From the NCBI GenBank assembly GCA_902812405.1, contig CADDZI010000014.1, forward strand, positions 1 to 48,588: a stretch of DNA of 48,588 nt, given 5' to 3'. Positions 17,360 through 31,544 of this stretch are shown here, piece by piece; within the stretch, counting starts at the first letter, position 1, and every line of letters begins with the position of its first letter. The stretch is from a bacterium. GTDB lineage: Bacteria; Vulcanimicrobiota; Vulcanimicrobiia; Eremiobacterales; Eremiobacteraceae. The position numbers were made by a program, and so were the translations under genes. The notes under the pieces are model-generated. The model did not search any database. It saw only the letters and a list, made by a program, of their open reading frames with translations, and was not told the origin of the DNA.

Positions 17360-17719
17360 GTGCCGACTTCGCCCTGGAGCATCATTGCCGTCTATTTCGT
17401 CGTCGCGCTGGCGGTGGCGGGTGCCATTGCCGTCGTCCCCGGCATTTTCACCCGCAAGCGGCCGACCAAGCAAAAGTTGGAGCCTTACGAGTGCGGGGTG
17501 CCGCCCACGTCCGGCCTCGAGGGCCGGTTCCCGGTTCGCTTTTACCTGGTTGCCATGCTCTTCGTCATCTTCGACGTCGAAACGGCAGCCTTTTATCCGT
17601 GGGCAGTCCAGCTAAAGGCGCTGGGCATGTTCGGTTTCCTTGAGATGGTAACGTTCATCGTCGTCTTGGGCGTCGGCTATGCCTACGTCTGGAAGAAGGG
17701 CGGCTTGTCATGGCGCTAG
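17360..17719 (+). CDS. nuoA: NADH-quinone oxidoreductase subunit A
   Basis: Small membrane subunit of complex I near the quinone channel. The 119-residue product starts at GTG 17360, preceded by GAGGGG at 17351-17356. It has three membrane helices, the conserved YECGVPP loop that carries the Cys linked to the active/deactive switch in mitochondria, and FDVE (TM2) with the conserved acidic pair. It is the first gene of the nuo operon, and the end overlaps nuoB by 10 bases. Confidence 0.97.
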
Positions 17720-18192
17720 GGGAGAACCAGCCGTTCGTGCTGACCAAGCTCGACGAGTTCATCAAGTGGGCCCAGTCCTCGGCGATTTGGCCCATGACCA
17801 TGGGCTTGGCCTGCTGCGCGATCGAGATGATGAGCATTGTGTCACCGCACTACGACACGGCGCGCTTCGGGGCTGAAGTCTTTCGATCCTCACCCCGTCA
17901 GGCCGACCTCATGATCGTGTCGGGTCGTGTCTCTAACAAGATGGCCCCCGTCTTACGGCAGCTGTACGAGCAGATGCCCGACCCCAAGTGGGTCATCTCC
18001 ATGGGCGCGTGCGCGTCGAGCGGCGGTATCTTCGACAATTATGCGGTGGTGCCGGCAGATACGTTTTTGCCTATCGATATCTACGTGCCGGGCTGTCCGC
18101 CCAGCCCCGACGCTCTCATCTACGCCTTGATGCAGTTGCGGCGGGAGATTCGCGCCGGCGGTAAGGCCAAGGTCCTGGCGGCGAATGCCTGA
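17710..18192 (+). CDS. nuoB: NADH-quinone oxidoreductase subunit B
   Basis: Hydrophilic subunit holding the terminal Fe-S cluster N2, which passes electrons to quinone. The 160-residue protein has the adjacent cysteine pair C35-C36 (LACCAIEM), C101 (GACASSGG) and C129 (PGCPPSP), the complete N2 ligand set. It overlaps nuoA by 10 bases and nuoC by 8. Confidence 0.98.
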
Positions 18193-18760
18193 TGCCGGCG
18201 CCCTGCACCCCGAGCGCGCGGCGCTCGCGCCGCTCCTGGAAAAGCTGACCGAGGCGGCCGGAACGGCTTTTCTCGAGGCCGTCGCGGCGCCCGACATGGA
18301 CGAGCTCGCCATCCGGCCGGAGGGTCTCCTGCCCGTCATGGACCTCGCGCGCTGCCACGGCTTCAACCACCTGCTGGACGTCGGCGGCGTCGACCACCAT
18401 CCGCTGACGCCTCGCTTCGAGGTTGCCTACCACCTCACCGCGCTCTCTGCAAACAGCGTGGAGCGTGCCGGGCCGATTCTTCATCCGCCGCGGCTGCGGG
18501 TGCGCGTCTTTTGCGACGAACCGGAACCCGCCGTTCCATCCGTGACGCACCTGTGGCCCAGCGCCAACTGGCCGGAGCGGGAGGTCTTCGATCAATTCGG
18601 CATTCGTTTTGACGGGCATCCCGATCTGCGCCGCATTCTGAATCCCGACGATTTTGTCGGGCATCCGCTGCGCAAGGACTTCCCCCTACGCGGCCAGGCA
18701 AGACGCTTTGTTCCGGGCGGGCGCGTCGGGCCGATCCCGCCGCTGGAGACGCGACGATGA
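18185..18760 (+). CDS. nuoC: NADH-quinone oxidoreductase subunit C
   Basis: Peripheral-arm 30-kDa subunit, 191 residues. The family signature is present as [20 protein letters not shown], followed by RRIL and [10 protein letters not shown]. The N-terminal 30 residues are variable. The gene is not fused to nuoD, unlike the E. coli NuoCD. It overlaps nuoD by four bases (ATGA). Confidence 0.97.
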
Positions 18761-19989
18761 GCACCCGCGGCACAACTCTCTTTGCGGACAATCCGGACGT
18801 CCAGCTCGCGCCAGGGGCGGAGCAGGATACTCTTGTCCTCTCCATGGGTCCCCAGCACCCCAGCACGCACGGTGTCCTGCGGGTGCTCCTGCGCTTGGAT
18901 GGCGAGGTCGTCGTCAGTGCCGAGCCTGAGATCGGCTTTCTCCATACCGGTATCGAAAAGCAGGCTGAGAATTTGCTCTGGCAGCAGGCGGTAACGGTTG
19001 TCGACCGCGCCGACTACCTTGCGCCTTTGTCCAACAGCTTGTGTTACGTCTTGGCCGCCGAGCAGCTGCTGGGCATCGACACGATTCCACCCCGCGCCCG
19101 GGTGCTGCGCGTCATGTTCACCGAGCTGACCCGGCTCGCCAGTCACCTGGTCTGGCTGGGAACCCATTGTCTCGACCTGGGCGCCCAATCCATCTTCTTC
19201 TACGCCTTCGAGATGCGCGAGCGCATCTTGTCGATCATGGAACTGGTGACCGGCGCCCGCATGCACCAATCGTGGTTTCGCATCGGCGGCCTGGCGATCG
19301 ACGTGCCGGTCGGCTTCCTGGACGCCATCGACGACTTCATCGCACGTTTTCCGCAACGCTTGGCCGACATGCGGGCCATCGTTGAAAAGAACGTCATCAT
19401 CCTCGACCGGCTGGTGGGCGTGGGCCGCATCAGCGCGGAGGAGGCCGTCGCGTGGGGTCTGACCGGGCCGTCCCTGCGCGCCACCGGCATCCGCTACGAC
19501 GTGCGGCGCGCCCACCCGTACTGTGACTACGATCAGTACGACTTCGACGTGCCGACGCAGACCGAGGGCGACTGCTACGCCCGCTTCGTCGTCCGTCTCA
19601 ACGAGATGTACGAATCCTGGCGCATCATCAAGCAGGCCCGGGACCGGTTTCCGGGCGGCCCGGTGACGATCGATGATCGCAAGATCATCCCGCCCCCGAA
19701 GACCGAAATCCAGCACTCCATGGAAGCATTGATCCACCATTTCAAGCTCGTGTCGGCGGGTTTCAACGTGCCGGAGGGACACGTCTACCAGGCCGTCGAG
19801 AGCCCGCGCGGGGAACTTGGTATGTACGTGACGAGCGCCGGCGGCAACAAGCCGTGGAGGGTTCGCTGGCGCGCACCCTCTTTCTACCAAACGCAAGCCC
19901 TCAAGCGGCTGGCACCTGGCAATCTCATCGCCGACGTCGTGGCCATTATCGGCAGCCTCGACCCGGTGTTCGGAGACGTCGACCGATGA
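18757..19989 (+). CDS. nuoD: NADH-quinone oxidoreductase subunit D
   Basis: The 49-kDa subunit that, with NuoB, forms the quinone head-group site; 410 residues. GPQHPSTHG near residue 30 contains the conserved quinone-site His. [12 protein letters not shown] contains the Tyr. [11 protein letters not shown] and [13 protein letters not shown] are the other family blocks. Many relatives have HHAYFRPGG where this has HQSWFRIGG, a mild divergence. Stop and nuoE start overlap (ATGA). Confidence 0.97.
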
Positions 19990-20480
19990 GCCCCGAACGC
20001 CGGCGCAAAGCGGAGGAATTGGCCGCGCGCTATCCGCGACGCCAATCCGCCCTCATTCCGTTCCTGCAGTACTGTCAGGAACAGGACGGCTTCGTGACCC
20101 GCCAAGCCATCCGCGACGGTGCCGAGATGTGCGGCCTGACCGAAGCCGAGGTCGAATCGATCGCTTCCTTCTATACGCTGCTCTTCCGGCAATCGGTCGG
20201 CAAGCACCTGATCCAGGTCTGCCGGACTCTGTCGTGCATGCTGCGCGGCGCGGGCGAGTTGCAAGAGCACATCCGCCGCCGGCTGGGTGTCCGCAACGGC
20301 GAAACGACGCCCGACGGGCTCTTCACCTACGAGGAAGTCGAGTGCCTGGCTGCGTGCGACCGCGCTCCCTGCCTGCAGCACAATCTTATGTTCCACTATA
20401 ACGTGACTCCGGACGAATTCGATCGCTTGCTGGAAACGTGGCGGGCAAGCCGGCCGGCGGTCAGCCTGCCGGCGGAGTAA
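19986..20480 (+). CDS. nuoE: NADH-quinone oxidoreductase subunit E
   Basis: The 24-kDa thioredoxin-fold subunit with the [2Fe-2S] cluster N1a, next to the NADH site. From ATG 19986 it has 164 residues with C79-x4-C84 and C120-x3-C124 as ligands. The frame is open farther upstream inside nuoD, but the ATGA overlap decides the start. Confidence 0.97.
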   Translation: MSPERRRKAEELAARYPRRQSALIPFLQYCQEQDGFVTRQAIRDGAEMCGLTEAEVESIASFYTLLFRQSVGKHLIQVCRTLSCMLRGAGELQEHIRRRLGVRNGETTPDGLFTYEEVECLAACDRAPCLQHNLMFHYNVTPDEFDRLLETWRASRPAVSLPAE

Positions 20481-20482
20481 GG

Positions 20483-21784
20483 ATGGCACCTTTCGAACCG
20501 GTGTTGACGCGCGGCCTGGGCAGGCTGGATTTGACCGACCTCTCGGTGTACGAAGCACAGGGCGGTTTTGGTGCGCTGCGCAAGGCGTTGCGTGACATGA
20601 CCCCTGAGGCGGTCGTCAACGAGGTCAGCGCTTCCAATCTGCGTGGGCGGGGTGGCGCGGGTTTCCCAACCGGCCGGAAGTGGAGTTTTCTGCCCAACGA
20701 CGGGCGGCCGCGGTACCTGGTCTGCAACTGCGACGAGGCCGAGCCCGGAACGTTCAAGGACCACATGCTGCTCGAGCAGACCCCCTTTCAGATTATCGAA
20801 GGCCTGGTGATCTCGGCCTACGCCATCCGCGCCGAGCGTGCGTTCATGTACATTCGGGGCGAATTTTTGGAAGGCTACCGCATCTTCCGGCGCGCGCTCG
20901 AGACGGCGCGCGAGCGCGGCTACGTCGGTCCGCGCATTGCGGGCAGCGATTTTTCACTCGACATCGTGGTACATCGCGGCGCCGGCGCGTACATCTGCGG
21001 CGAAGAGACAGCCATGCTCGAGTCGATCGAGGGCAAGCGTGGTGAACCGCGCCTTAAGCCTCCCTTCCCGGCCAATGCCGGCTTATACGGGATGCCGACC
21101 GTCGTCAACAACGTCGAGACACTGTGCTGCGTGCCCCACATCGTCGAGCGCGGCGCCCAGTGGTTTTCTTCCATCGGGCCGCCCAAGTGCCCGGGACCGA
21201 AGATCATCAGCGTCAGCGGGCACGTTCGCAAACCGGGCAATTACGAAGTCCCCATGGGGATCCCGGCCGGCCAGCTGATCGAGGAGTATGCAGGCGGGCT
21301 CGAACCGGGCCGGCGGTTGAAGGCCATCCAGCCGGGTGGGGGCTCCTCGGCTGCCATCTTTGAAGAAGACCTGGATACCGGGCTGGACTTCGACTCCTTG
21401 GCGGCCAAGGGCACGATGCTCGGATCGGGCGGCTTCGTGGTCATGGACGACAGGACGTGCCTCGTGCGCGCGGCGCTGACGCTGGTGCGGTTCTTCGAAC
21501 ACGAATCCTGCGGTCAGTGCACCCCTTGCCGGGAGGGTGGACAGTGGGTGGCGCGCATGGTCGGGCGGCTGGAAGCCGGCGAAGGCTCGAACGCGGACCT
21601 GGCCATCTTGCGCACGCTCAACCGCACGCTGACCGGTACCAACCTGTGCCCATTGGGGGACTCCATCATGCCGTTTCTATCGTCGGTCCTACGGCGCTTC
21701 CCGGAGGAGTTCGAGACCCACGTGACCCAGGCCGGCTGTCCGCTCGCCGCGGAACAGGCCGTCGCTGCGGGAGCTGGAGCATGA
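20483..21784 (+). CDS. nuoF: NADH-quinone oxidoreductase subunit F (NADH/FMN-binding)
   Basis: The 51-kDa subunit that oxidises NADH through FMN and cluster N3. ATG 20483 follows the nuoE stop by two bases, with GGCGGAG/AAGG upstream as ribosome site, giving 433 residues. Nucleotide-binding glycine motif GRGGAGFPTGRKW lies at 55-67; NCDEAEPGTFKDH (82-94) and GAGAYICGEETAM (167-179) bind FMN/NADH. C343, C346, C349 (ESCGQCTPC) and C389 ligate the [4Fe-4S] cluster. A GTG/ATG-type start at 20438 inside nuoE is possible but has no advantage. Overlaps nuoG by four bases. Confidence 0.98.
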   Translation: MAPFEPVLTRGLGRLDLTDLSVYEAQGGFGALRKALRDMTPEAVVNEVSASNLRGRGGAGFPTGRKWSFLPNDGRPRYLVCNCDEAEPGTFKDHMLLEQTPFQIIEGLVISAYAIRAERAFMYIRGEFLEGYRIFRRALETARERGYVGPRIAGSDFSLDIVVHRGAGAYICGEETAMLESIEGKRGEPRLKPPFPANAGLYGMPTVVNNVETLCCVPHIVERGAQWFSSIGPPKCPGPKIISVSGHVRKPGNYEVPMGIPAGQLIEEYAGGLEPGRRLKAIQPGGGSSAAIFEEDLDTGLDFDSLAAKGTMLGSGGFVVMDDRTCLVRAALTLVRFFEHESCGQCTPCREGGQWVARMVGRLEAGEGSNADLAILRTLNRTLTGTNLCPLGDSIMPFLSSVLRRFPEEFETHVTQAGCPLAAEQAVAAGAGA

Positions 21785-24177
21785 CAAACGGGCGGCGCAT
21801 GGTGCGCCTGACGATCGACGGAACGAGCCTCGAGGTTCCCGAGGGCACGCTGCTGGTCGAGGCGGCCAAGAGCATCGGGGTCCACATTCCGGTCTACTGC
21901 TACCATCCCAAGATGGACCCGGCGGGGCTGTGCCGCATTTGCCTGGTTGAGATCGAGAAGATGCCCAAGTTGCAGATCGCGTGCAACACGCAAGTCGCTG
22001 AGGGCATGGTCGTGCACACCGCATCGTCGCGCGTCGCCGAGGGGCGCCGCGGCGTGCTGGAGTTTCTCCTTCTCAACCACCCGCTCGACTGCCCGATCTG
22101 CGACAAAGGCGGGGAATGCGACCTTCAGGATTTCACCCTCACCTACGGCCCGGGAGCAAGCCGGTTGACCGAGCCCAAACTCCACAAGCCCAAGGCTGTC
22201 GATCTCGGTCCGACGATCGTCCTCGACGAAGAGCGCTGCATTCTGTGCCGGCGCTGTACCCGCTTCGACAACGAGATCACGCACGAACGGAGACTCATCG
22301 TCGTCGAACGCGGCCATCGCTCGTTGATCGGGACCGCGGACGGCAAGCCCTACACCTCGTACTTTTCGGGCAACACGACGGAAATCTGCCCGGTGGGCGC
22401 GCTGACGAGCAAGGCCTATCGCTTCCGGTCGCGTCCCTGGGATCTCAGCCACGCGGATTCCGTCTGCACGCAGTGCTCGGTCGGCTGCAATTATCGTATT
22501 GACTCGCGCTTTGGGCGCATCATGCGCACCTACACGCGCGAGAACCCGGCCGTGGACGACGGCTGGATTTGCGACCGCGGGCGCTACACGTTCAACTACC
22601 TGTACGAACCCAGCCGTCTGCGTCAACCGCTCATTGCCGTCGACGGGGAGCTCAAAGCCGCCACGTTTGACGAGGCGATCGCCCTCACCGCCGAAAAACT
22701 GGGACGCGCAGCGCAAGCACGGCGCGTCGGGATCATCGGCGGCGGGCGGCTCTCGGACGAAGAGGCATTTGCGCTGCAGCTGCTGGCCCGCGACGTCCTG
22801 GGAAGCGACAATATCGACTATCGCGCGAGCGCGCAAAAGTACGCCTCACCGCCCCGCTACGAAGCGCGCCTGGCCGACATTGACGATGCGTCGTTGATCC
22901 TCATCTTCGGCGCCGTGACGCCCGAGCAGGCGCCGATCGCCGACCTGCGGATTCGCCGCGCCGTCGCCCGCCGCCACGCGCGGCTGCTCTTCGTGGGACC
23001 CTTCGTACCGCCCGCCTTTGTGCCCAGCCGGCACGTCCCGTATGCGCCGGGAGAGATTGCCCCGCTCATGCGGGCGCTGGCAGACGTCGTCCACCACGGC
23101 CGCGAGGAACAGGGCGAGGGCTTCGTCGCGGAGATTGCGCAGGCTCTGGCCCAGGCGGAGAAAATCATCGCCATTCACAACGGACGCGATCCGCAGGCTG
23201 TCGAGGCGCTGGATGCCTTGCTCGACCGGCTGGCCCAGTACGATCATCCGGTCGGCGTGTTGGTGGTGGGAGCCGCAGGGAATGCCCGCGGCGCCGAGGC
23301 TGCCGGCTGCGTCCCCAACCTCGGCCCGGGCTACGCGCCGCTCGGACGCACCGGCATGACCACCGCGCGCATGCTGGATGCCGCCGCGCGCGGCGAGATC
23401 GATGCGCTCTTCATCGCCGGGGCCAATCCGGCTCTCACCTTTCCCGATGGAGCCCTCGTACGCCGGGCGCTGGAACGCGTCGAGTTTCTGGCGGTCTCCG
23501 AGCAGGTCATGACCGAAACCGCCGCCTACGCCGACGTCGTCTTCGCCGCCGCCTCGTTCGCGGAGAAAAGCGGCCACGTGACGAACCTCGAGGGGCGCCA
23601 ACAGCCTTTCCACCAAGCGGTGGAACCGCCGGTTCAGGTTGCGACGGACGCTCAGATCCTCGCCGCGCTGGCCCACGCGCTGGGCAAACCGTGGGTGATA
23701 TCGGCGGAGCCTGCGGTGCTGTTCTCCCAGCTTGAGAAGATGCAGCGTCCGGCGCGCACCCGCTCCTCCCGAGACCCCCTGCCCCGTCCGTGCGTGGACG
23801 ATCCCGTGCCGGTGCCGGATCCGGCCTCCTGGCCGGACGGCCTCACGGTGATTCCGATTCCCCATCTCTATGCAGGCGGCGGAGCGGCCGCACACGATCC
23901 GGGTCTCGCGCCGATGCGCCCGCAACCCTTTGCCGTTTTCCACCCGCAGGATGCGCAGCAGCGGGGGGTCGCGGATGGGACTCGGGTGCGGCTGCGCGGA
24001 CCGGGGGGCGAGATCGAGGTGCAGGCCCGCACAGGCGATCACGTGCCGCCGGGAAGCGTTTTGGTCTTGGCCGACATGCCCGAGGCTCCCGTCAACAAAC
24101 TGACCAATGCCTCGGGATACGGCGTGGCGTGCGTTGACGCCGCGACGGTAACCGCCTCGCAGGAGTTGTCCGCATGA
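21781..24177 (+). CDS. nuoG: NADH-quinone oxidoreductase subunit G
   Basis: The 75-kDa subunit with the longest Fe-S chain, 798 residues from ATG 21781. N-terminal [2Fe-2S] motif YCYHPKMDPAGLCRICLVE plus ACN; then HPLDCPICDKGGECDLQ for N5 and N4 ligands (His plus Cys); CILCRRCTRF with EICPVGAL. A further C-x2-C-x3-C...C set (VCTQCSVGC and WICDRGRY) binds the off-path cluster N7 found in E. coli and Thermus but lost in mitochondria. The rest is a catalytically empty molybdopterin-oxidoreductase-like domain, ending with a MoCo-dinucleotide-binding-like beta domain. ATGA overlaps at both ends. Confidence 0.97.
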   Translation: MTNGRRMVRLTIDGTSLEVPEGTLLVEAAKSIGVHIPVYCYHPKMDPAGLCRICLVEIEKMPKLQIACNTQVAEGMVVHTASSRVAEGRRGVLEFLLLNHPLDCPICDKGGECDLQDFTLTYGPGASRLTEPKLHKPKAVDLGPTIVLDEERCILCRRCTRFDNEITHERRLIVVERGHRSLIGTADGKPYTSYFSGNTTEICPVGALTSKAYRFRSRPWDLSHADSVCTQCSVGCNYRIDSRFGRIMRTYTRENPAVDDGWICDRGRYTFNYLYEPSRLRQPLIAVDGELKAATFDEAIALTAEKLGRAAQARRVGIIGGGRLSDEEAFALQLLARDVLGSDNIDYRASAQKYASPPRYEARLADIDDASLILIFGAVTPEQAPIADLRIRRAVARRHARLLFVGPFVPPAFVPSRHVPYAPGEIAPLMRALADVVHHGREEQGEGFVAEIAQALAQAEKIIAIHNGRDPQAVEALDALLDRLAQYDHPVGVLVVGAAGNARGAEAAGCVPNLGPGYAPLGRTGMTTARMLDAAARGEIDALFIAGANPALTFPDGALVRRALERVEFLAVSEQVMTETAAYADVVFAAASFAEKSGHVTNLEGRQQPFHQAVEPPVQVATDAQILAALAHALGKPWVISAEPAVLFSQLEKMQRPARTRSSRDPLPRPCVDDPVPVPDPASWPDGLTVIPIPHLYAGGGAAAHDPGLAPMRPQPFAVFHPQDAQQRGVADGTRVRLRGPGGEIEVQARTGDHVPPGSVLVLADMPEAPVNKLTNASGYGVACVDAATVTASQELSA

Positions 24178-25184
24178 CGCACGTGCCGGAATGGTTGCTC
24201 ACGGTCGTCATCAAGTCCGCGGTGCTCATCTTCATCGTCGTCACCGCTTTTGCGTACCTCATGCTGGCCGAACGCAAGATGCTGGGGTGGTTTCAGATGC
24301 GCGTCGGGCCCACGTGGTGCGGGCCGTGGGGCCTCCTGCAACCCGCTGCAGACGCGGTCAAGCTCGTCCTCAAGGAGGACCTGACGCCTGCGGATGCCGA
24401 CCGCTTCCTGTACAAGGTGGCGCCGGCACTGGCCGTGCTGACTGCGCTTTTGGCATACGCGGTCATCCCGTTCGGCTTCTACCCGGATGGCCATCCGATC
24501 GCCATCGCATCGCCCAACGTCGGCATCCTCTTTTTGCTGGCTGCCGGCTCCATCGGCGTGTACGGCATCGCGCTCGGGGGGTGGTCGTCCCAATCCAAGT
24601 GGCCCCTGCTCGGGAGCATCCGTTCCACCGCGCAGATGATCTCCTACGAGCTCGCCATGGGGTTGGCCATCGTGCCCGTCGTTATGCTGGCCGGCACGAC
24701 GAACCTGGCCGGCATCGTCGCCGCCCAGGCCCGGCACCACCTGTGGTACGCCGTTCCGCTCTTCGTGCCGTTCGTTATCTACGGCATCACAGCGCTGGCC
24801 GAGACTAACCGGGCGCCGTTTGATTTACCCGAAGCCGAAACCGAGCTCGTCGCTGGCTTCCACACCGAGTACTCGAGCCTCCGTTTCGGCACGTTCTTCG
24901 TCGCCGAGTACGTCAATATGATCACCGTGTGTTCCATCCAAACGCTGCTCTTCTTGGGCGGCGGTGACGGCCCGTGGGTGGAGCGCCTGCCTTGGCTTTC
25001 CGTCGTCTGGTTTTTGGTCAAGGTGGCCGTGCTGCTCTTCACGATGATCTGGTGGCGAGCCACGCTGCCACGCCTGCGCTACGACCGCTTGATGGCCTTC
25101 GGCTGGAAGGTGCTGCTGCCGGTCGCCGCCCTCAACCTGCTGATCGTCGCGGGGATTGTCGCCGCCGGAGGGCCACGCGGATGA
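24174..25184 (+). CDS. nuoH: NADH-quinone oxidoreductase subunit H
   Basis: Membrane subunit that builds the quinone tunnel and links it to the proton channels; 336 residues with about eight helices. The loop ETNRAPFDLPEAETEL at 210-225 carries the conserved acidic residues of the E-channel, followed by VAGFHTEYS. MRVGPTWCGPWGLLQPAAD (42-60) is the N-terminal family block. No key residue appears changed. Overlaps nuoI by four bases. Confidence 0.97.
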   Translation: MTHVPEWLLTVVIKSAVLIFIVVTAFAYLMLAERKMLGWFQMRVGPTWCGPWGLLQPAADAVKLVLKEDLTPADADRFLYKVAPALAVLTALLAYAVIPFGFYPDGHPIAIASPNVGILFLLAAGSIGVYGIALGGWSSQSKWPLLGSIRSTAQMISYELAMGLAIVPVVMLAGTTNLAGIVAAQARHHLWYAVPLFVPFVIYGITALAETNRAPFDLPEAETELVAGFHTEYSSLRFGTFFVAEYVNMITVCSIQTLLFLGGGDGPWVERLPWLSVVWFLVKVAVLLFTMIWWRATLPRLRYDRLMAFGWKVLLPVAALNLLIVAGIVAAGGPRG

Positions 25185-25753
25185 ACCGCGGCCCCTTCTT
25201 CGTGCTGCAGGCGGCGTACGGACTCGTCGTCGGCCTGCTGACGACCCTGAAGTACTTTTTCTCCAAGAAGGCCACGATCGATTATCCGCGCGTGCCGTAC
25301 CGGCACGCCGAGCGGTTCCGCGGCGTCCATGAATTGCGCCGGTACGACGACGGTTTGGAGCGCTGCATCGGCTGCGAGTTGTGTGCGGTCGCCTGCCCGG
25401 CCAACGCGATCACGGTGATCGGCGCCGAGAACGACCCGCACGCGCCGGTCTCGCCCGGCGAACGCTACGGCTACCGCTACGAGATCGATATGCTGCGCTG
25501 CATCTTCTGCGGATTCTGCGAGGAGGCGTGCCCGACCGACGCGATCGTTCTGACGCCGCGCTTCGACATCGCGGACTTTACCCGCGACCGCTTGATCTTC
25601 GGCAAAGACAAACTTCTCGTGCGCGATCCGCTCACCCAGCACCGCGCGAACACCGAGTCCGCCGCCGAGACCGAGCCGGGCGTCGTGCCCCCCGCGCCCG
25701 CAACACCCCCGCCGCCGACGGCCGTGCCGTCGCAGCCTACGGGAGCATCATGA
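25181..25753 (+). CDS. nuoI: NADH-quinone oxidoreductase subunit I
   Basis: Ferredoxin-like subunit carrying clusters N6a and N6b. From ATG 25181 it has 190 residues. Ligands C62, C65, C68, C72 (CIGCELCAVAC) and C107, C110, C113, C117 (CIFCGFCEEAC) are complete. The N-terminus forms an amphipathic membrane anchor. The C-terminal 30 or so residues are an unusual Pro/Ala-rich tail beyond the usual NuoI end. ATGA overlaps join it to nuoH and nuoJ. Confidence 0.97.
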   Translation: MNRGPFFVLQAAYGLVVGLLTTLKYFFSKKATIDYPRVPYRHAERFRGVHELRRYDDGLERCIGCELCAVACPANAITVIGAENDPHAPVSPGERYGYRYEIDMLRCIFCGFCEEACPTDAIVLTPRFDIADFTRDRLIFGKDKLLVRDPLTQHRANTESAAETEPGVVPPAPATPPPPTAVPSQPTGAS

Positions 25754-26262
25754 GCTTCCTCTTTTGGCTGTGCGCGGTCATCGCGATCCTGACCGGGATC
25801 GGCGTCGTAGCCAGCCGCCATCCAGTGCACTCGGTGGTCGGACTCATCGTGAACTTCAGCGCGCTGGCCGTCTTGTTTTTGACCCTGTCGGGCGAGTTTT
25901 TGGCGATGATTCAGATCATCATCTACGCCGGCGCGATCTTGGTCCTGTTCCTCTTCGTCATCGCCATCCTGACGGCCGGCAACCGAGCGGTCGAGAGTGC
26001 CCCCAGCCGGCTCGAATTTCAAGCCGTCCCCTCCATCGTCGCCGGCCTGGCCGCACTGACGCTGCTGGCGGCGGGTATCCGCGAGACTCGGCCGGCGGCC
26101 GCCATCACCTCTCCGCCACCCGAGGGTTTTGGCCTGGTCGCCACGTTCGGCCGCTCGCTCCTCACCACCAACCTCTTTGCCTTTGAGGTGACGGGTTTCG
26201 TTTTGCTCGTCGCCGTCATCGGCGTCATCGTCATGGCCGGCCGGCCGGCCGTGCGGTCCTGA
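25750..26262 (+). CDS. nuoJ: NADH-quinone oxidoreductase subunit J
   Basis: Membrane subunit with five helices, 170 residues from ATG 25750. The family block MIQIIIYAGAILVLFLFVI (about 53-71) is present and includes the pi-bulge helix that gates the central water chain in complex I. The C-terminal helix ends in a short basic tail. Eleven bases separate the stop from nuoK; GAGGAGGC before the nuoK ATG provides its ribosome site. Confidence 0.95.
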   Translation: MSFLFWLCAVIAILTGIGVVASRHPVHSVVGLIVNFSALAVLFLTLSGEFLAMIQIIIYAGAILVLFLFVIAILTAGNRAVESAPSRLEFQAVPSIVAGLAALTLLAAGIRETRPAAAITSPPPEGFGLVATFGRSLLTTNLFAFEVTGFVLLVAVIGVIVMAGRPAVRS

Positions 26263-26273
26263 AGCGAGGAGGC

Positions 26274-26582
26274 ATGCAGATTCCACCTGTGGCGGACTAC
26301 CTGATTGTGGCGGCGGCGTTGTTCGTCGTCGGCGTCGTCGGCTTTCTCGTGCGGCGCAATCCCATCACCATGCTCATGGCGATCGAGCTGATGTGGAACG
26401 CCGGTAATCTCGCGTTTGCCGCCTTCGCCCGCAGCTTCGGCGATATGTCGGGGCAGGTTTTTGTCTTCATCGTTATCACCGTCGCGGCCGCAGAGGCGGC
26501 GATTGCGCTGGCCATCGTCGTTATGGTCTTCCGGCGTCGCCGCGACGCCGACGTCGACGATATCTCGGTGATGCGCGGATGA
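26274..26582 (+). CDS. nuoK: NADH-quinone oxidoreductase subunit K
   Basis: Small MrpC-like subunit, 102 residues and three helices. The two conserved membrane glutamates are there, in MAIELMWNAGNL (E. coli Glu36 equivalent) and VAAAEAAIALAIV (Glu72 equivalent). These form the link between the E-channel and the antiporter-like subunits. A basic/acidic C-terminal tail (FRRRRDADVDD) follows. Overlaps nuoL by four bases. Confidence 0.96.
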   Translation: MQIPPVADYLIVAAALFVVGVVGFLVRRNPITMLMAIELMWNAGNLAFAAFARSFGDMSGQVFVFIVITVAAAEAAIALAIVVMVFRRRRDADVDDISVMRG

Positions 26583-28528
26583 TGACCGACACCTTTGCCC
26601 AGACCGCACCCTTCACGATTCTCTTCCTGCCTCTCTTGGGGATGCTGGTCATCGCCGTCGTCGGCCCGCGCGTCCATCGTGCGGCATCCGCAGCCATCGC
26701 CAATCTCGCCGTGCTGGGTGCTTTTGCGCTGACGGTGGCTCTAGCGCTGGACGTCTGGCACCGGCCACCCTCTGATCAGGTACTGACGGTCACGTATCCG
26801 CCGGCCTGGGCCGCCCATCAGCAATTCTGGGCCCACATCCCGCCCCTGACCGTGTCGTTCGAACTGCGCATCGATGGCCTGTCGCTTGCCTGGATGCTCA
26901 TCGTCACCGGCGTGGGCTTCCTTATCCATCTGTACTCGGTGGGCTACATGCTCGACTCGCGATGGTATCGCACGTTCTTCGCCTACATGAACCTCTTCAT
27001 CTTCGCCATGCTGCTCTTGGTGATGGCCGGCAACTTCCTGTGGCTGCTCGTGGGATGGGGCGGCGTCGGCCTGGCGTCATACCTGCTCATCGGATTCGAT
27101 ATGCACCGGCCGGCCGCGGTTGCCGCGGCGCGGAAGGCGCTCATCATGAACGTCATCGGCGACGTCGGGATCATGCTGGCCATGTTTTTGCTGTTCGCGC
27201 ACTTCGGCAGCCTCTCGTACAAGGAGATCTTCGCCAACGTTACCGCCGCCGGGACGCCGGCCCTGAACTGGATCGGCATCTGGCTGTTGCTGGGTGCGGT
27301 CGCCAAATCGGCGCAGTTGCCGCTCCACACCTGGCTCCCGGACGCGATGGAGGGTCCGACGCCGGTCAGCGCGCTCATTCACGCGGCGACGATGGTGACC
27401 GCCGGTGTCTACCTCGTCGCGCGCGCCCACCCCATCTACGACCACGCGCCCGCCGCGGCGCAGGCGGTGGCCGTTGTGGGCTGCGCCACCGCGTTCTTCG
27501 CCGCCACGATCGGCTGCGTGCAGTACGACATCAAGCGTGTCCTGGCATACTCGACGATGAGTCAGATCGGATACATGGTGCTGGCGGTCGGCGTCGGCGC
27601 GTACGCCGCCGGGACGTTCCACTTCATCACCCATGCCTTCTTCAAGGCCTTGCTCTTCATGGCCGCCGGGATCATCATCCACAACCTGGGTGGTGAGCAG
27701 GACATCCGCAACATGGGCGGACTGGCGCGCCGCCTGCCCTTTGCCTTTTGGGCTTTCCTCGTCGGCACGCTGGCCCTCTGCGGCGTGTTTCCCTTCTCGG
27801 GATTTTTCTCCAAGGACGCGATTTTAGACCAGCTCCTCGTCCTCCATCACCCGGTATTGTGGGCTTTCGGCACCGCCACCGCCGCGCTGACCGCGTACTA
27901 TATGTTCCGCCTGCTCTTCATGACGTTCTTTACGGGCGGGTTTCGGGGTAAGGCGCAAACGCACGCCGGCACCGTCGCCAGTATGAGCGTGCCGGTCGCT
28001 CTCCTGATCGGGCTGGCTCTCGTTGGCGGCTGGATCGTCGTGCCCGGCCACGATGGGTTGACGCCGCTCCTGCGCGCCGCGTTCGCGGATACCGGCACCA
28101 TGGCAGCCCTCGACCACTTCAGCGGCATCGTCTCGCTGGCGGCTCTGGGCGCGGGTCTGGTGGGATTCGTGGCTGCGTACCTACTGTACGAACGACCATC
28201 CGGCCTGCGGCCGACCCTGCGGAGAAGCCTGCAGCCCGTGCGCAACCTGCTGGCCAACGCCTACTACGTGGATGCCACCTACCATTGGCTGTTCGAAGTC
28301 CCGGTCCTCACCTTGGCATCTGACATCGCCCGCTACCTTGACCCGGAGGCCGTCGCTGGTGGGGCCGCCGCCGTGGCGCGAACGGCGACCGCCGCCGGTG
28401 ACGCCGTGCGTCTGTGGGAGGCGGGCTACGTACGCCGCTATGGCTTGAGCATGCTCGTCGGCGTCGTCATCGTCTTGGCGCTCTTCCTGTACCTTGCAGG
28501 CGGAACGGCCGCCCTGGGGGGGCGCTAG
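26579..28528 (+). CDS. nuoL: NADH-quinone oxidoreductase subunit L (TM5 Glu replaced by Gly)
   Basis: Distal antiporter-like proton-pumping subunit, 649 residues, about 16 membrane helices and a C-terminal lateral helix with a final anchor. Conserved blocks: AKSAQLPLHTWLPDAMEGPTP (TM7 Lys at 243), SALIHAATMVTAGVYL (His of TM8), DIKRVLAYSTMSQIGYM, FHFITHAFFKALLF and GFFSKDAIL (TM12 Lys). The TM5 motif usually reads GWEGVGL with the essential Glu (E. coli E144); here it is GWGGVGL, Gly161 encoded by GGC at 27059-27061. The Arg of TVTRVGD (E. coli R175) is Val192. Asp195 (E. coli D178) is kept. Otherwise the protein looks intact and expressed as part of the operon. Confidence 0.97.
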   Translation: MMTDTFAQTAPFTILFLPLLGMLVIAVVGPRVHRAASAAIANLAVLGAFALTVALALDVWHRPPSDQVLTVTYPPAWAAHQQFWAHIPPLTVSFELRIDGLSLAWMLIVTGVGFLIHLYSVGYMLDSRWYRTFFAYMNLFIFAMLLLVMAGNFLWLLVGWGGVGLASYLLIGFDMHRPAAVAAARKALIMNVIGDVGIMLAMFLLFAHFGSLSYKEIFANVTAAGTPALNWIGIWLLLGAVAKSAQLPLHTWLPDAMEGPTPVSALIHAATMVTAGVYLVARAHPIYDHAPAAAQAVAVVGCATAFFAATIGCVQYDIKRVLAYSTMSQIGYMVLAVGVGAYAAGTFHFITHAFFKALLFMAAGIIIHNLGGEQDIRNMGGLARRLPFAFWAFLVGTLALCGVFPFSGFFSKDAILDQLLVLHHPVLWAFGTATAALTAYYMFRLLFMTFFTGGFRGKAQTHAGTVASMSVPVALLIGLALVGGWIVVPGHDGLTPLLRAAFADTGTMAALDHFSGIVSLAALGAGLVGFVAAYLLYERPSGLRPTLRRSLQPVRNLLANAYYVDATYHWLFEVPVLTLASDIARYLDPEAVAGGAAAVARTATAAGDAVRLWEAGYVRRYGLSMLVGVVIVLALFLYLAGGTAALGGR

Positions 28529-28530
28529 GG

Positions 28531-30099
28531 ATGTTGATCGACACCGTCATCTTTTTGCCGCTCGCAACCGCCATCGTGCTGCTGGCCATTCCCCGAACAG
28601 CACACAACGCTCTCAAAGGCGTGGCCTTGGCGGGTGCCGTGGCGACGTTTGCGCTGTCTCTGGCTTTCATAAACCTCGGGACGTCGGTCGCCGCCGATCA
28701 GAATGTGCCCTGGATCCAAACCCTGTGGACCGCCGCCTACCATGTCCGTGTGGACGGCGTACGCCTCTTCTTCATCCTCCTGACGACGCTCGTGGCGGCG
28801 GTTTCCATCTGGGGCGCCTTCTCGTACGACCAGCCCGAGCGCCTGCGGGGGTACCTTTGCCTGTTGCTTGCGTTCGAGACAACGCTCCTCGGTGTGTTCA
28901 CCGCCGCCGATCTGCTGCTGTTTTACATCTACTGGGACCTCATGTTGATCCCCGTCTTCCTTTTGTTGACCGGCTTCTCGGGTACCGCCGAAGCACGCCG
29001 CGCGGCCTGGAGCTACCTCATCTACAACGGTGCAGGCGGGCTCGTACTCCTCCTGGGCATCGTGGCTCTGGTTGCCCACACGCACACCTTCGAACCGGCC
29101 GCAACTCTCTCGCTGCCCGCCCGTACGGCGTGGTGGATCTTCGCTGCTTTTGCGCTGGCTTTCGCGATCAAGACGCCGCTGTTTCCGTTCCACGCCTGGA
29201 TGCCGCCGACGTACACCTTCGCCCCGGCGCCGGTGGTTGCGCTCGTGTCCGGCGTTCAGAGCAAGGCCGGGCTCTTCGGCTTGCTGGCCTTTGCCTTACC
29301 TCTGTTTCCGCAGGCCGCGCACGCCTGGGCTCCTGTGCTCCTCATCCTGGCGACGGCCGGTATTCTGTACGGTGCCCTGGCGGCAATCGGAGAGCAGGAT
29401 GTCAAAACGCTGGTCGGCTTCTCATCTCTCTCCCACTTGGGGCTTGTCTGGCTCGCGCTCTTTGCCTTCGACATGACCTCGGTACCGGCCGGGATTCTCA
29501 TGATTGTCAGTCACGGCTTGATCGCCGCTGCCCTGTTCCTGTTGCTGGGCTTTATCGAAGAACGCACGGGCACGCGCGATCTGGCGCGGTTCGGGGGCCT
29601 CGCCTGGCAGGCACCGCGTCTCGCCGTCTTCCTCCTCATTGCAGCGATGGCGGCCTTGGGCCTGCCGGGGCTTTCCGGATTCGCGGGAGAATTTCTCATC
29701 TTGATCGGCAGCTGGCAAACGCAGCCCGTCTTCACAGCGCTGGCGCTCGTGGCCATCGTCTTGGCCAGCGTCTACATGCTCAAGTTGTTCCAGGGAACGA
29801 TGCACGGACCGCAGCGCCTTGGGCAGGCCGCACCGAGCGTGCGCGACCTGCGGCCGCGGGAACTCGCACTCGTCGCGCCGCTCCTGGCGGGGATCGTCTT
29901 CCTCGGCGTCTGGCCGGCGTGGCTCAACGATCGAACACCGTCACAGGTCACTGCCGCGGCTGCGGTCACCCGGGTCGGCGGGGTGCCAGACTCCCCGCAT
30001 GCTGCGCACACCGCGTCCGCGGCACGTAAGGCGGCCGCCGGCCTGCAGATGCAGACGGCACGGCGTGCGGACGGGATGGTCGCGGAGGCCGGGTCGTGA
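28531..30099 (+). CDS. nuoM: NADH-quinone oxidoreductase subunit M (TM5 Glu replaced by Asp)
   Basis: Second antiporter-like pumping subunit, 522 residues from ATG 28531, two bases after the nuoL stop, with TAGGG overlapping that stop as ribosome site. TM7 Lys is present in FAIKTPLFPFHAWMP and the TM8 Lys in VSGVQSKAGLFG. The TM5 motif YWDLMLIPVF has Asp136 (GAC at 28936-28938) where E. coli has Glu144 (WEMMLVP). After the last helix comes an Ala/Arg-rich tail of about 45 residues that standard NuoM lacks. Overlaps nuoN by four bases. Confidence 0.97.
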   Translation: MLIDTVIFLPLATAIVLLAIPRTAHNALKGVALAGAVATFALSLAFINLGTSVAADQNVPWIQTLWTAAYHVRVDGVRLFFILLTTLVAAVSIWGAFSYDQPERLRGYLCLLLAFETTLLGVFTAADLLLFYIYWDLMLIPVFLLLTGFSGTAEARRAAWSYLIYNGAGGLVLLLGIVALVAHTHTFEPAATLSLPARTAWWIFAAFALAFAIKTPLFPFHAWMPPTYTFAPAPVVALVSGVQSKAGLFGLLAFALPLFPQAAHAWAPVLLILATAGILYGALAAIGEQDVKTLVGFSSLSHLGLVWLALFAFDMTSVPAGILMIVSHGLIAAALFLLLGFIEERTGTRDLARFGGLAWQAPRLAVFLLIAAMAALGLPGLSGFAGEFLILIGSWQTQPVFTALALVAIVLASVYMLKLFQGTMHGPQRLGQAAPSVRDLRPRELALVAPLLAGIVFLGVWPAWLNDRTPSQVTAAAAVTRVGGVPDSPHAAHTASAARKAAAGLQMQTARRADGMVAEAGS

Positions 30100-31544
30100 C
30101 GGCGTTCGCGGGCGTAACGATTTCGTGGCCCGCTCTGGCGCCGATCCTCGTGCTGACGGGGGCCGGCTTACTCATCATGCTGGTGGATCTTGTGAGCCGC
30201 GCGACGCTCCGCGGCCTGCTCTACGGCATCGGCATCTTGGGAGCCGTTGGAGCGGGCCTCACCATGCTGCCGCTCTACGGCCACTCCGTGACCACGCTTG
30301 CGGGCGCGTTTGCCAGCGACCGCTTTTCGTGGCTCTTCGACCTCGTGCTGCTGGGCAGCCTTGCCGTCACCTTGCTCCTCTCCTCGCTGCGGCGAGCCGA
30401 GGACGGCGGCAGCCCGGGTGCCTATGCGGCGCTTTTGGTCTTTGCCGCCATCGGCGGCATGGTGATGGCCGGTGCGGCAAACCTCATGATCATCTTCCTG
30501 GGATTGGAGCAGTTGTCGCTGGCGCTCTACGTCCTGGCGGGCATGGGCTATCCCCGGGCCGCGTCGCAAGAGGCCGCACTCAAGTACGTCCTGCTCGGTT
30601 CGCTGGCCTCGGCTTTCCTGATCTTCGGTTCGGCTTTGCTGTACGGCTCCTCCGGCGGGCTGTCGCTCGACGCCGTGCACGCTGCAGCGAGCGTTCCAAG
30701 CGGGCTCTTCGTCACCGGACTTGCGCTGTTTGTGGTTGGGATCGGTTTCAAACTTGCCCTGGCACCTTTCCACAGCTGGGTGCCCGACGTCTACGAAGGC
30801 TCGCCGCTCGCGGTGACCGCGTTCATGGCGGTGGCAGTCAAGGCGGCTTCGCTGGCCGTTCTGGCACGTGTTACGTACGTCGTCTTCGGTCACGATACGT
30901 CGGCCCTCGCACCGCTGTGGCTGCTGGCCATTATCTCGATGCTGGTGGGAAACGTCGGAGCGATCCGGCAGCGCAATCTCAAGCGTCTTCTGGGATACTC
31001 GAGCATTGCACAGGTGGGCTACATGGTAGTTGGCCTTGCGGGAGTCGGTCCCCAAGGACTCAGCGCTTTGGCCTTTTACCTCGTGGCCTATGCTTTGACG
31101 ACACTCGGGGCGTTTGCGGTGATGGCGCTTCTGGCGGACGGCGGAGAGGAGTACGCCGATCTGGGCGCCTACCCCGGCCTCGCGGCGCGACGCCCCTGGC
31201 CTGCGGCGGCCATGGCGCTCTTTTTCTTTTCCCTGGCCGGCATACCGGCGACGGCGGGCTTCTACGGCAAGCTGCTTCTCTTGGCCGAGGGGCTTGCCGC
31301 CGGGCCGTGGGGCCTGGCACTGGATGTCACGCTCGTTGTGGGGACCGTTGTTTCCCTCTACGTCTACGGGAAGATCGTGTGGGACATGTACTCGTTCACC
31401 GAACCCGAGGCGGTTGTACCGACCGGCAACGCTCTTCCATCCTGGGTTGCCGTCGCGGCCGGAGCGCTGGGTACGCTCGTGCTGGGGCTGGCCCCGCAGC
31501 TTTTTGCGATGAGCCAACCCTTTCTCTCGGTCGGACCGCGCTAA
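30096..31544 (+). CDS. nuoN: NADH-quinone oxidoreductase subunit N
   Basis: Third antiporter-like subunit, closest to the E-channel; 482 residues from GTG 30096. TM5 Glu is retained (FLGLEQLSLALY, Glu138; E. coli Glu133). TM7 Lys is in FKLALAPFHSWVPDVYEGSP, TM8 Lys in AVAVKAASLAVL and TM12 Lys in FYGKLLLL. RLLGYSSIAQVGYM is the usual later block. It is the last gene of the operon; a short CCGGG...CCCGG dyad follows the stop near 31558, but it also overlaps the next gene's leader. Confidence 0.97.
   Translation: MTAFAGVTISWPALAPILVLTGAGLLIMLVDLVSRATLRGLLYGIGILGAVGAGLTMLPLYGHSVTTLAGAFASDRFSWLFDLVLLGSLAVTLLLSSLRRAEDGGSPGAYAALLVFAAIGGMVMAGAANLMIIFLGLEQLSLALYVLAGMGYPRAASQEAALKYVLLGSLASAFLIFGSALLYGSSGGLSLDAVHAAASVPSGLFVTGLALFVVGIGFKLALAPFHSWVPDVYEGSPLAVTAFMAVAVKAASLAVLARVTYVVFGHDTSALAPLWLLAIISMLVGNVGAIRQRNLKRLLGYSSIAQVGYMVVGLAGVGPQGLSALAFYLVAYALTTLGAFAVMALLADGGEEYADLGAYPGLAARRPWPAAAMALFFFSLAGIPATAGFYGKLLLLAEGLAAGPWGLALDVTLVVGTVVSLYVYGKIVWDMYSFTEPEAVVPTGNALPSWVAVAAGALGTLVLGLAPQLFAMSQPFLSVGPR

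Follow-up and report, generated by a model that had tools for sequence, protein, structure and literature searches.

How protons are moved along the 200 Å membrane arm of respiratory complex I is disputed, and the competing models fix the role of a site in transmembrane helix 5 (TM5) of the antiporter-like subunit NuoL. In the domino model the proton from TM12 of NuoM must reach this site (PMC10212512), and in the wave model a double ion pair must open. In Escherichia coli NuoL the double ion pair is formed by K229–D178 (3.3 Å) and R175–E144 (2.9 Å), with K229 and E144 4.8 Å apart and R175 lying halfway to E407 of NuoM, so that it bridges E407(M) and E144(L) (PMC13324432). Thermus thermophilus has the same double pair (PMC11496545), and the TM5 glutamate has been described as 'conserved in each antiporter-like subunit' in a review (PMC10212512) and as 'fully conserved' in an experimental paper (PMC4938563). 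Ion-pair mutants are largely inactive and hence tell little about mechanism; a natural, apparently functional lineage lacking the pair is a ready-made test of the assumed requirement, and current pump models predict that such a variant should fail. Here we describe a NuoL of this kind, without the glutamate (E-less) and also without the arginine, which is encoded on contig CADDZI010000014.1 (assembly GCA_902812405.1) of a bacterium of the Eremiobacteraceae. The whole stretch of DNA analysed, 48,588 nucleotides, is referred to as the window.

The canonical NuoL/ND5/Nqo12 proteins of E. coli, Thermus and mitochondria share with the E-less form the fold, the place in the operon, the Lys229–Asp178 pair, the His254 gate, the Lys305/342/399 wire and the NuoM and NuoN neighbours, whereas the E-less form has neither Glu144 nor Arg175 and is shifted at NuoL positions 140, 164 and 228 and NuoM positions 248 and 264. 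DabB2, from the DAB2 CO2-hydration complex, is likewise a natural NuoL homologue that functions with its TM5 glutamate replaced (by Ile151) and its Lys–Asp pair kept, but it lies outside complex I, is partnered by DabA2 and retains Arg182, while E-less NuoL has lost the arginine too (PMC13144422). The ND2 subunit of a few animals provides a natural loss of the TM5 glutamate within an antiporter-like subunit of complex I (PMC3046159); it is, however, a different subunit, the glutamate of which tolerates mutation better in E. coli, and the E-less NuoL additionally lacks the arginine and occupies whole bacterial clades. Finally, Thermus Nqo12 E132Q and E. coli NuoL E144Q have had the carboxylate removed at the same site (PMC11496545, PMC4938563), but these single laboratory changes leave the arginine unpaired, whereas the natural form has no arginine either. 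What is new here is a NuoL variant of a known enzyme, the known precedents being DabB2, which is not complex I, and the ND2 of a few animals; no earlier report of a NuoL without the TM5 glutamate was found in the open-access literature, subscription journals being mostly outside the scope of that search.

The window encodes a complete NuoL that lacks the second ion pair

The nuoL gene (26579–28528, + strand) is flanked by nuoK and nuoM within a nuo cluster of 14 genes, the position expected of a TIGR01974 protein, and encodes a full-length product of 649 amino acids that scores 628 bits against TIGR01974 (cut-off 407.5). An AlphaFold model of the protein (mean predicted local distance difference test score 81) matched the solved NuoL/ND5 chains of E. 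coli, Mycobacterium, Paracoccus, Thermus and mitochondria with a TM-score of about 0.8; the model is of a single chain and the NuoM–NuoL interface is outside its reach. It can be seen from a gapless alignment with E. coli NuoL (NP_416781.1) that the TM5 motif GWEGVGL of E. coli reads GWGGVGL in the window. Codon 161 (GGC, 27059–27061) specifies glycine at the position of Glu144, and codon 192 (27152–27154) specifies valine at the position of Arg175 in TM6, the ion-pair partner of Glu144 (PMC13324432). By contrast with this missing second pair, the first pair is present, codon 195 (27161–27163) encoding the aspartate equivalent to Asp178 in TM6 and codon 243 (27305–27307) the lysine equivalent to Lys229 in TM7, and the later histidine and lysine residues are also kept. 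These assignments agree with those made in the initial annotation, and its view that the remainder of NuoL is intact is supported, as is the intactness of the operon. That annotation had, however, paired Glu144 with the TM7 lysine and mentioned the arginine only in passing. This is incomplete, since the acid closest to the lysine is Asp178, which is retained, and the partner of Glu144 is Arg175; it is the E144–R175 pair that has been lost as a unit.

Glu144 and Arg175 define the canonical functional form of NuoL and not the family. Because the window protein has every other hallmark of NuoL, and because 116 other NuoLs share its state at these two positions, we class it as a variant NuoL. Identity as MrpA was rejected, as the protein scored approximately 270–294 bits on MrpA models that have cut-offs above 900, and identity as DabB was rejected because the neighbouring genes are nuoK and nuoM rather than a DabA gene and because both the TM5 glutamate and the TM6 arginine are replaced. 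NuoL, NuoM and NuoN were the only three PF00361 proteins found in the genome, so that this approximately 97% complete assembly offers no second complex I and no Mrp antiporter as a substitute. We conclude that the complex I of the window is an ordinary 14-subunit respiratory enzyme with a variant NuoL.

The glutamate is never lost without the base

We compared 329 distinct NuoL-type proteins from the window's class and phylum, from Chloroflexota, Actinomycetota and Nitrospirota and from named genomes of other phyla, a non-uniform sample in which similarity to the query determined the choice of named loci, some regions being selected by hand. Glutamate at position 144 was accompanied by arginine at 175 in 202 proteins and by lysine in four, while 117 had glycine or alanine at 144 together with valine, threonine, alanine or isoleucine at 175, and two, L349 (genome G579) and L348 (G103), combined Glu144 with valine or alanine. 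Of the remaining four, three are remote paralogues resembling DabB, in which position 144 is Ile, Leu or Gln, and the fourth is incomplete in this region, leaving 325 NuoLs. None of the 329 had glycine or alanine at 144 alongside arginine or lysine at 175. The covariation of glutamate and base at first appeared to be without exception, but this strict form of the rule was broken by L349 and L348, the only NuoLs with Glu144 and no base at 175, which emerged when 301 Chloroflexota genomes were searched in a targeted way. In its softened form the rule is that there is no loss of the glutamate without loss of the base.

The rest of the proton path is almost unchanged. Asp178 and Lys229 were invariant in all 325 NuoLs, His254, Lys305 and Thr312 were invariant in the E-less and canonical groups alike, Lys342 and Lys399 were unchanged wherever they could be aligned, and His338 showed one substitution among the E-less sequences. 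Asp400 was replaced by glutamate in 36 of 112 E-less sequences, compared with 6 of 205 canonical ones. When the two groups were compared position by position, only positions 144 and 175 shared no residue between them, although strong biases were seen at 140, where Phe/Tyr gives way to Leu/Ile, at 228, where Gly gives way to Ala, and at 164, where the shift is to Val. This comparison revealed no conserved gain of an acid or a base in the membrane part of E-less NuoL. The suggestion that another acid might substitute for Glu144 is therefore unsupported as far as a new residue is concerned, Asp178, which was there already, being the candidate, and the alignment also shows no neighbouring residue that supplies the glutamate. 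Asp174 of the window protein, at the end of TM5, was considered as a compensating acid and rejected, since several family members have tyrosine there.

The E-less form occurs in three phyla

E-less NuoL was found in every sampled member of the window's class (Eremiobacterota/Vulcanimicrobiota). Among named genomes the closest to the window are those of Candidatus Eremiobacterota, one of which NCBI places in Vulcanimicrobiota, so that the window probably belongs to this phylum. Class members outside the window's family have glycine or alanine at the TM5 site, mostly in the motif GWGLVG, and all those read have valine at the arginine position. Members of the phylum from outside this class carry either the canonical form alone or both forms. 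A pattern search of 301 evenly drawn Chloroflexota genomes found the E-less form in 80; all of the matches for which the DNA was read were NuoL and none had arginine at 175. It was also seen in Thermoleophilia, Solirubrobacterales and other Actinomycetota. Both the glutamate and the arginine were kept in the sampled Alphaproteobacteria, Planctomycetes, Acidobacteria, Nitrospira and Streptomyces. The idea that the loss might be shared by a clade has thus held up, the clade being a large one that extends over three phyla. The locus L048 (CAMCOB010000024.1) is titled 'MAG: Bifidobacterium breve' (MAG, metagenome-assembled genome), but its NuoL is 76% identical to that of a Thermoleophilia MAG and the title is probably a mislabel.

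Canonical and E-less NuoL occur together in eight genomes (G162, G170, G154, G119, G100, G440, G446 and G447), which suggests that such cells contain two complexes I, each specialised, and would allow the two forms to be compared side by side. Streptomyces and mycobacteria use menaquinone, and as their NuoLs retain the glutamate, quinone type alone is not the cause of its loss.

NuoM has changed along with NuoL

The nuoM gene of the window (28531–30099, +) carries lineage-specific changes. It has tyrosine at the position of E. coli NuoM His248 (codon 228, 29212–29214), and this substitution is a signature of the E-less lineage, being found in 98 of 98 E-less operons but in only 5 of 195 canonical ones (both sets include some near-duplicate loci). 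Codon 244 (29260–29262) encodes serine in place of Leu264, adjoining the central Lys265, as is the case in most E-less operons. At the TM5 glutamate of NuoM itself, Glu144, all 195 canonical operons have glutamate, whereas 41 of the 98 E-less operons have aspartate, including that of the window (codon 136, 28936–28938); the carriers belong to the window's class and to Solirubrobacterales-type Actinomycetota. Lys234, Lys265 and Glu407 of NuoM are kept in the E-less operons, the last of these, in TM12, being codon 387 of the window gene (29689–29691), and so are Glu133, Lys217 and Lys247 of NuoN. Because these changes in NuoM accompany the loss in NuoL, we conclude that the loss of Glu144 and Arg175 sits in a co-evolved membrane arm rather than in an isolated gene, and we infer that the changes in the two subunits are functionally linked.

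In order to follow the history of the E-less form, trees were built without the diagnostic columns. A tree of NuoL and NuoM together grouped the E-less complexes and required one change of state, with a branch support of only 37. The tree of NuoL alone required two changes and placed E. coli and a Nitrospira copy inside the E-less group, and the tree of NuoM alone also required two and recovered nearly the same E-less group. Simple convergence in NuoL alone is unlikely, since the NuoM proteins of the same operons give nearly the same grouping. On the basis of the NuoL and NuoM trees the E-less form is one old lineage, or nearly so, that extends over three phyla. When both of the Glu-only sequences were added, L349 was nested deep among the E-less Chloroflexota, next to L207, and looks like a case of regained glutamate, while L348 was placed near the border with the canonical forms with weak support; both have NuoM Tyr248. 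A lone buried glutamate would be tolerable through protonation, whereas a lone buried arginine would not, and this would fit the finding of glutamate without a base twice and of a base without glutamate never. It suggests that the arginine was lost before the glutamate, but with so few deep events the relation between glutamate and base is a pattern and not a statistical proof.

How E-less NuoL may work

The explanation that we favour, and regard as reasonably probable as a whole, is that of an old lineage of NuoL with a single ion pair, which pumps on the Lys–Asp pair alone and in which NuoM has changed along with NuoL. The retention of K229–D178 and of nearly the whole remaining proton wire makes it very probable that NuoL conducts protons and is still driven by the complex, and judging from its sequence it most likely still pumps on this single pair. 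The gate of NuoL would then be Lys229–Asp178 alone, with Glu407 of NuoM acting on this pair directly or via water and without the R175/E144 bridge. The joint loss of an acid and a base leaves the net charge unchanged, and Asp178 alone would take on the role otherwise linked with Glu144. Asp178 may plausibly be sufficient because, in simulations of E. coli NuoL, its proton affinity and that of Glu144 are inversely correlated (PMC13358369). The proposal is further supported by isolated Nqo12, which conducts protons faster once the glutamate is replaced (E132Q; PMC11496545), and by DabB2, which functions with isoleucine at this site (PMC13144422). The initial annotation had also raised the possibility that the pump does not work at all; the near-complete conservation of channel residues in some 115 E-less sequences from three phyla makes this unlikely.

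Several points weigh against our proposal. The NuoL E144Q substitution is reported to depress activity and pumping strongly in canonical enzymes (PMC4938563, PMC11496545), and in Paracoccus ND4 the residue E141 is essential (PMC9802314). The E-less arm must therefore differ from the canonical arm in more than Glu144, because coupled activity is reportedly stopped or strongly lowered when an intact canonical enzyme undergoes this change, and the co-varying positions are suggested to be these further differences. There have been just one or two independent losses, so that the coupling of positions 144 and 175 rests on few events, and L349, a Glu-only sequence, looks as though it has regained its glutamate. 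Moreover, glycine or alanine together with valine leave room that could be filled by water or lipid.

A potential explanation that we consider rather unlikely is that the NuoM-to-NuoL step is broken and NuoL is out of step, with fewer than four protons pumped per NADH, which would perhaps suit a low-potential quinone. This would be expected if, as the domino model holds, the NuoM TM12 proton is needed at the NuoL TM5 site (PMC10212512), and it is consistent with the absence of both residues of the E. coli bridge to E407(M) and with the relaxation of the NuoM TM5 glutamate to aspartate in the E-less lineage only. However, conservation extends to nearly all other channel residues of NuoL along the way from input to exit, which would be unexpected if pumping had stopped, and in Paracoccus those ND4 mutants that retain turnover translocate four protons without escape cycles (PMC9802314). 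It is conceivable, though less likely than not, that a widespread natural complex I, present in three phyla, does without the relay E407–R175–E144 and uses another coupling path or a lower stoichiometry, in which case the domino and double-ion-pair mechanisms would not be universal.

It is improbable that the mode of transport has changed, NuoL being a freer conduit for protons (or Na+) or being fed by a different path, with control moved to NuoM (Tyr248, Ser264, Asp/Glu144). Removal of the glutamate does speed proton conduction by isolated Nqo12, as seen with E132Q (PMC11496545), in the DabB2 structure the missing glutamate was proposed by its authors to hold the pair open (PMC13144422), and the lineage-specific changes in NuoM surround its central lysine. 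Nevertheless, the exit-path residues and the His254 gate are unchanged, and no signature of a Na+ site turned up, although no search aimed at one was made. A relaxed or decaying NuoL kept for structure only would account for the absence of a supposedly essential residue, the replacement of which damages canonical enzymes, but is very improbable given the long intact open reading frame, the complete operon, the near-complete conservation of channel residues over deep divergence and the lack of another complex I in the genome. Finally, a sequencing or assembly error at codon 161 can be excluded with near certainty, because a change from a glutamate codon (GAR) to GGC requires two base changes and because all 12 same-family species with a readable site agree in having glycine or alanine (GGC in ten, GCC in two and a glutamate codon in none).

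Other features of the cluster and related loci

The nuoA–nuoN cluster is collinear on the + strand (17360–31544). The genes nuoA–nuoK, which together with those described above and nuoN make up the 14-gene cluster, occupy 17360–26582, and Glu36 and Glu72 of NuoK and the channel glutamates of NuoH are kept. NuoH (24174–25184) has asparagine at the position of E. coli NuoH His208. The nuoN gene (30096–31544, +) retains its TM5 glutamate (E. coli Glu133) in the motif LGLEQLSL.

In loci from sister classes within the phylum we observed a canonical-type complex I whose NuoM has glutamate in place of the TM7 lysine Lys234, in the motif IEAG (L267, L269–L272, L274, L275, L277, L279, L280 and L283). 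This adds a further type of exception among ion pairs that had been taken as invariant. A separate NuoJ/K/L/M-like cluster was present in two Chloroflexota genomes (L135 in G061 and L136 in G064). Its L protein lacks both the glutamate and the arginine and its M protein has glutamine at both Glu144 and Glu407; this L/M-like pair represents another system, which the NuoM counts do not include. When read by eye, the cluster was seen to adjoin a putative ferredoxin-NADP-reductase-like gene.
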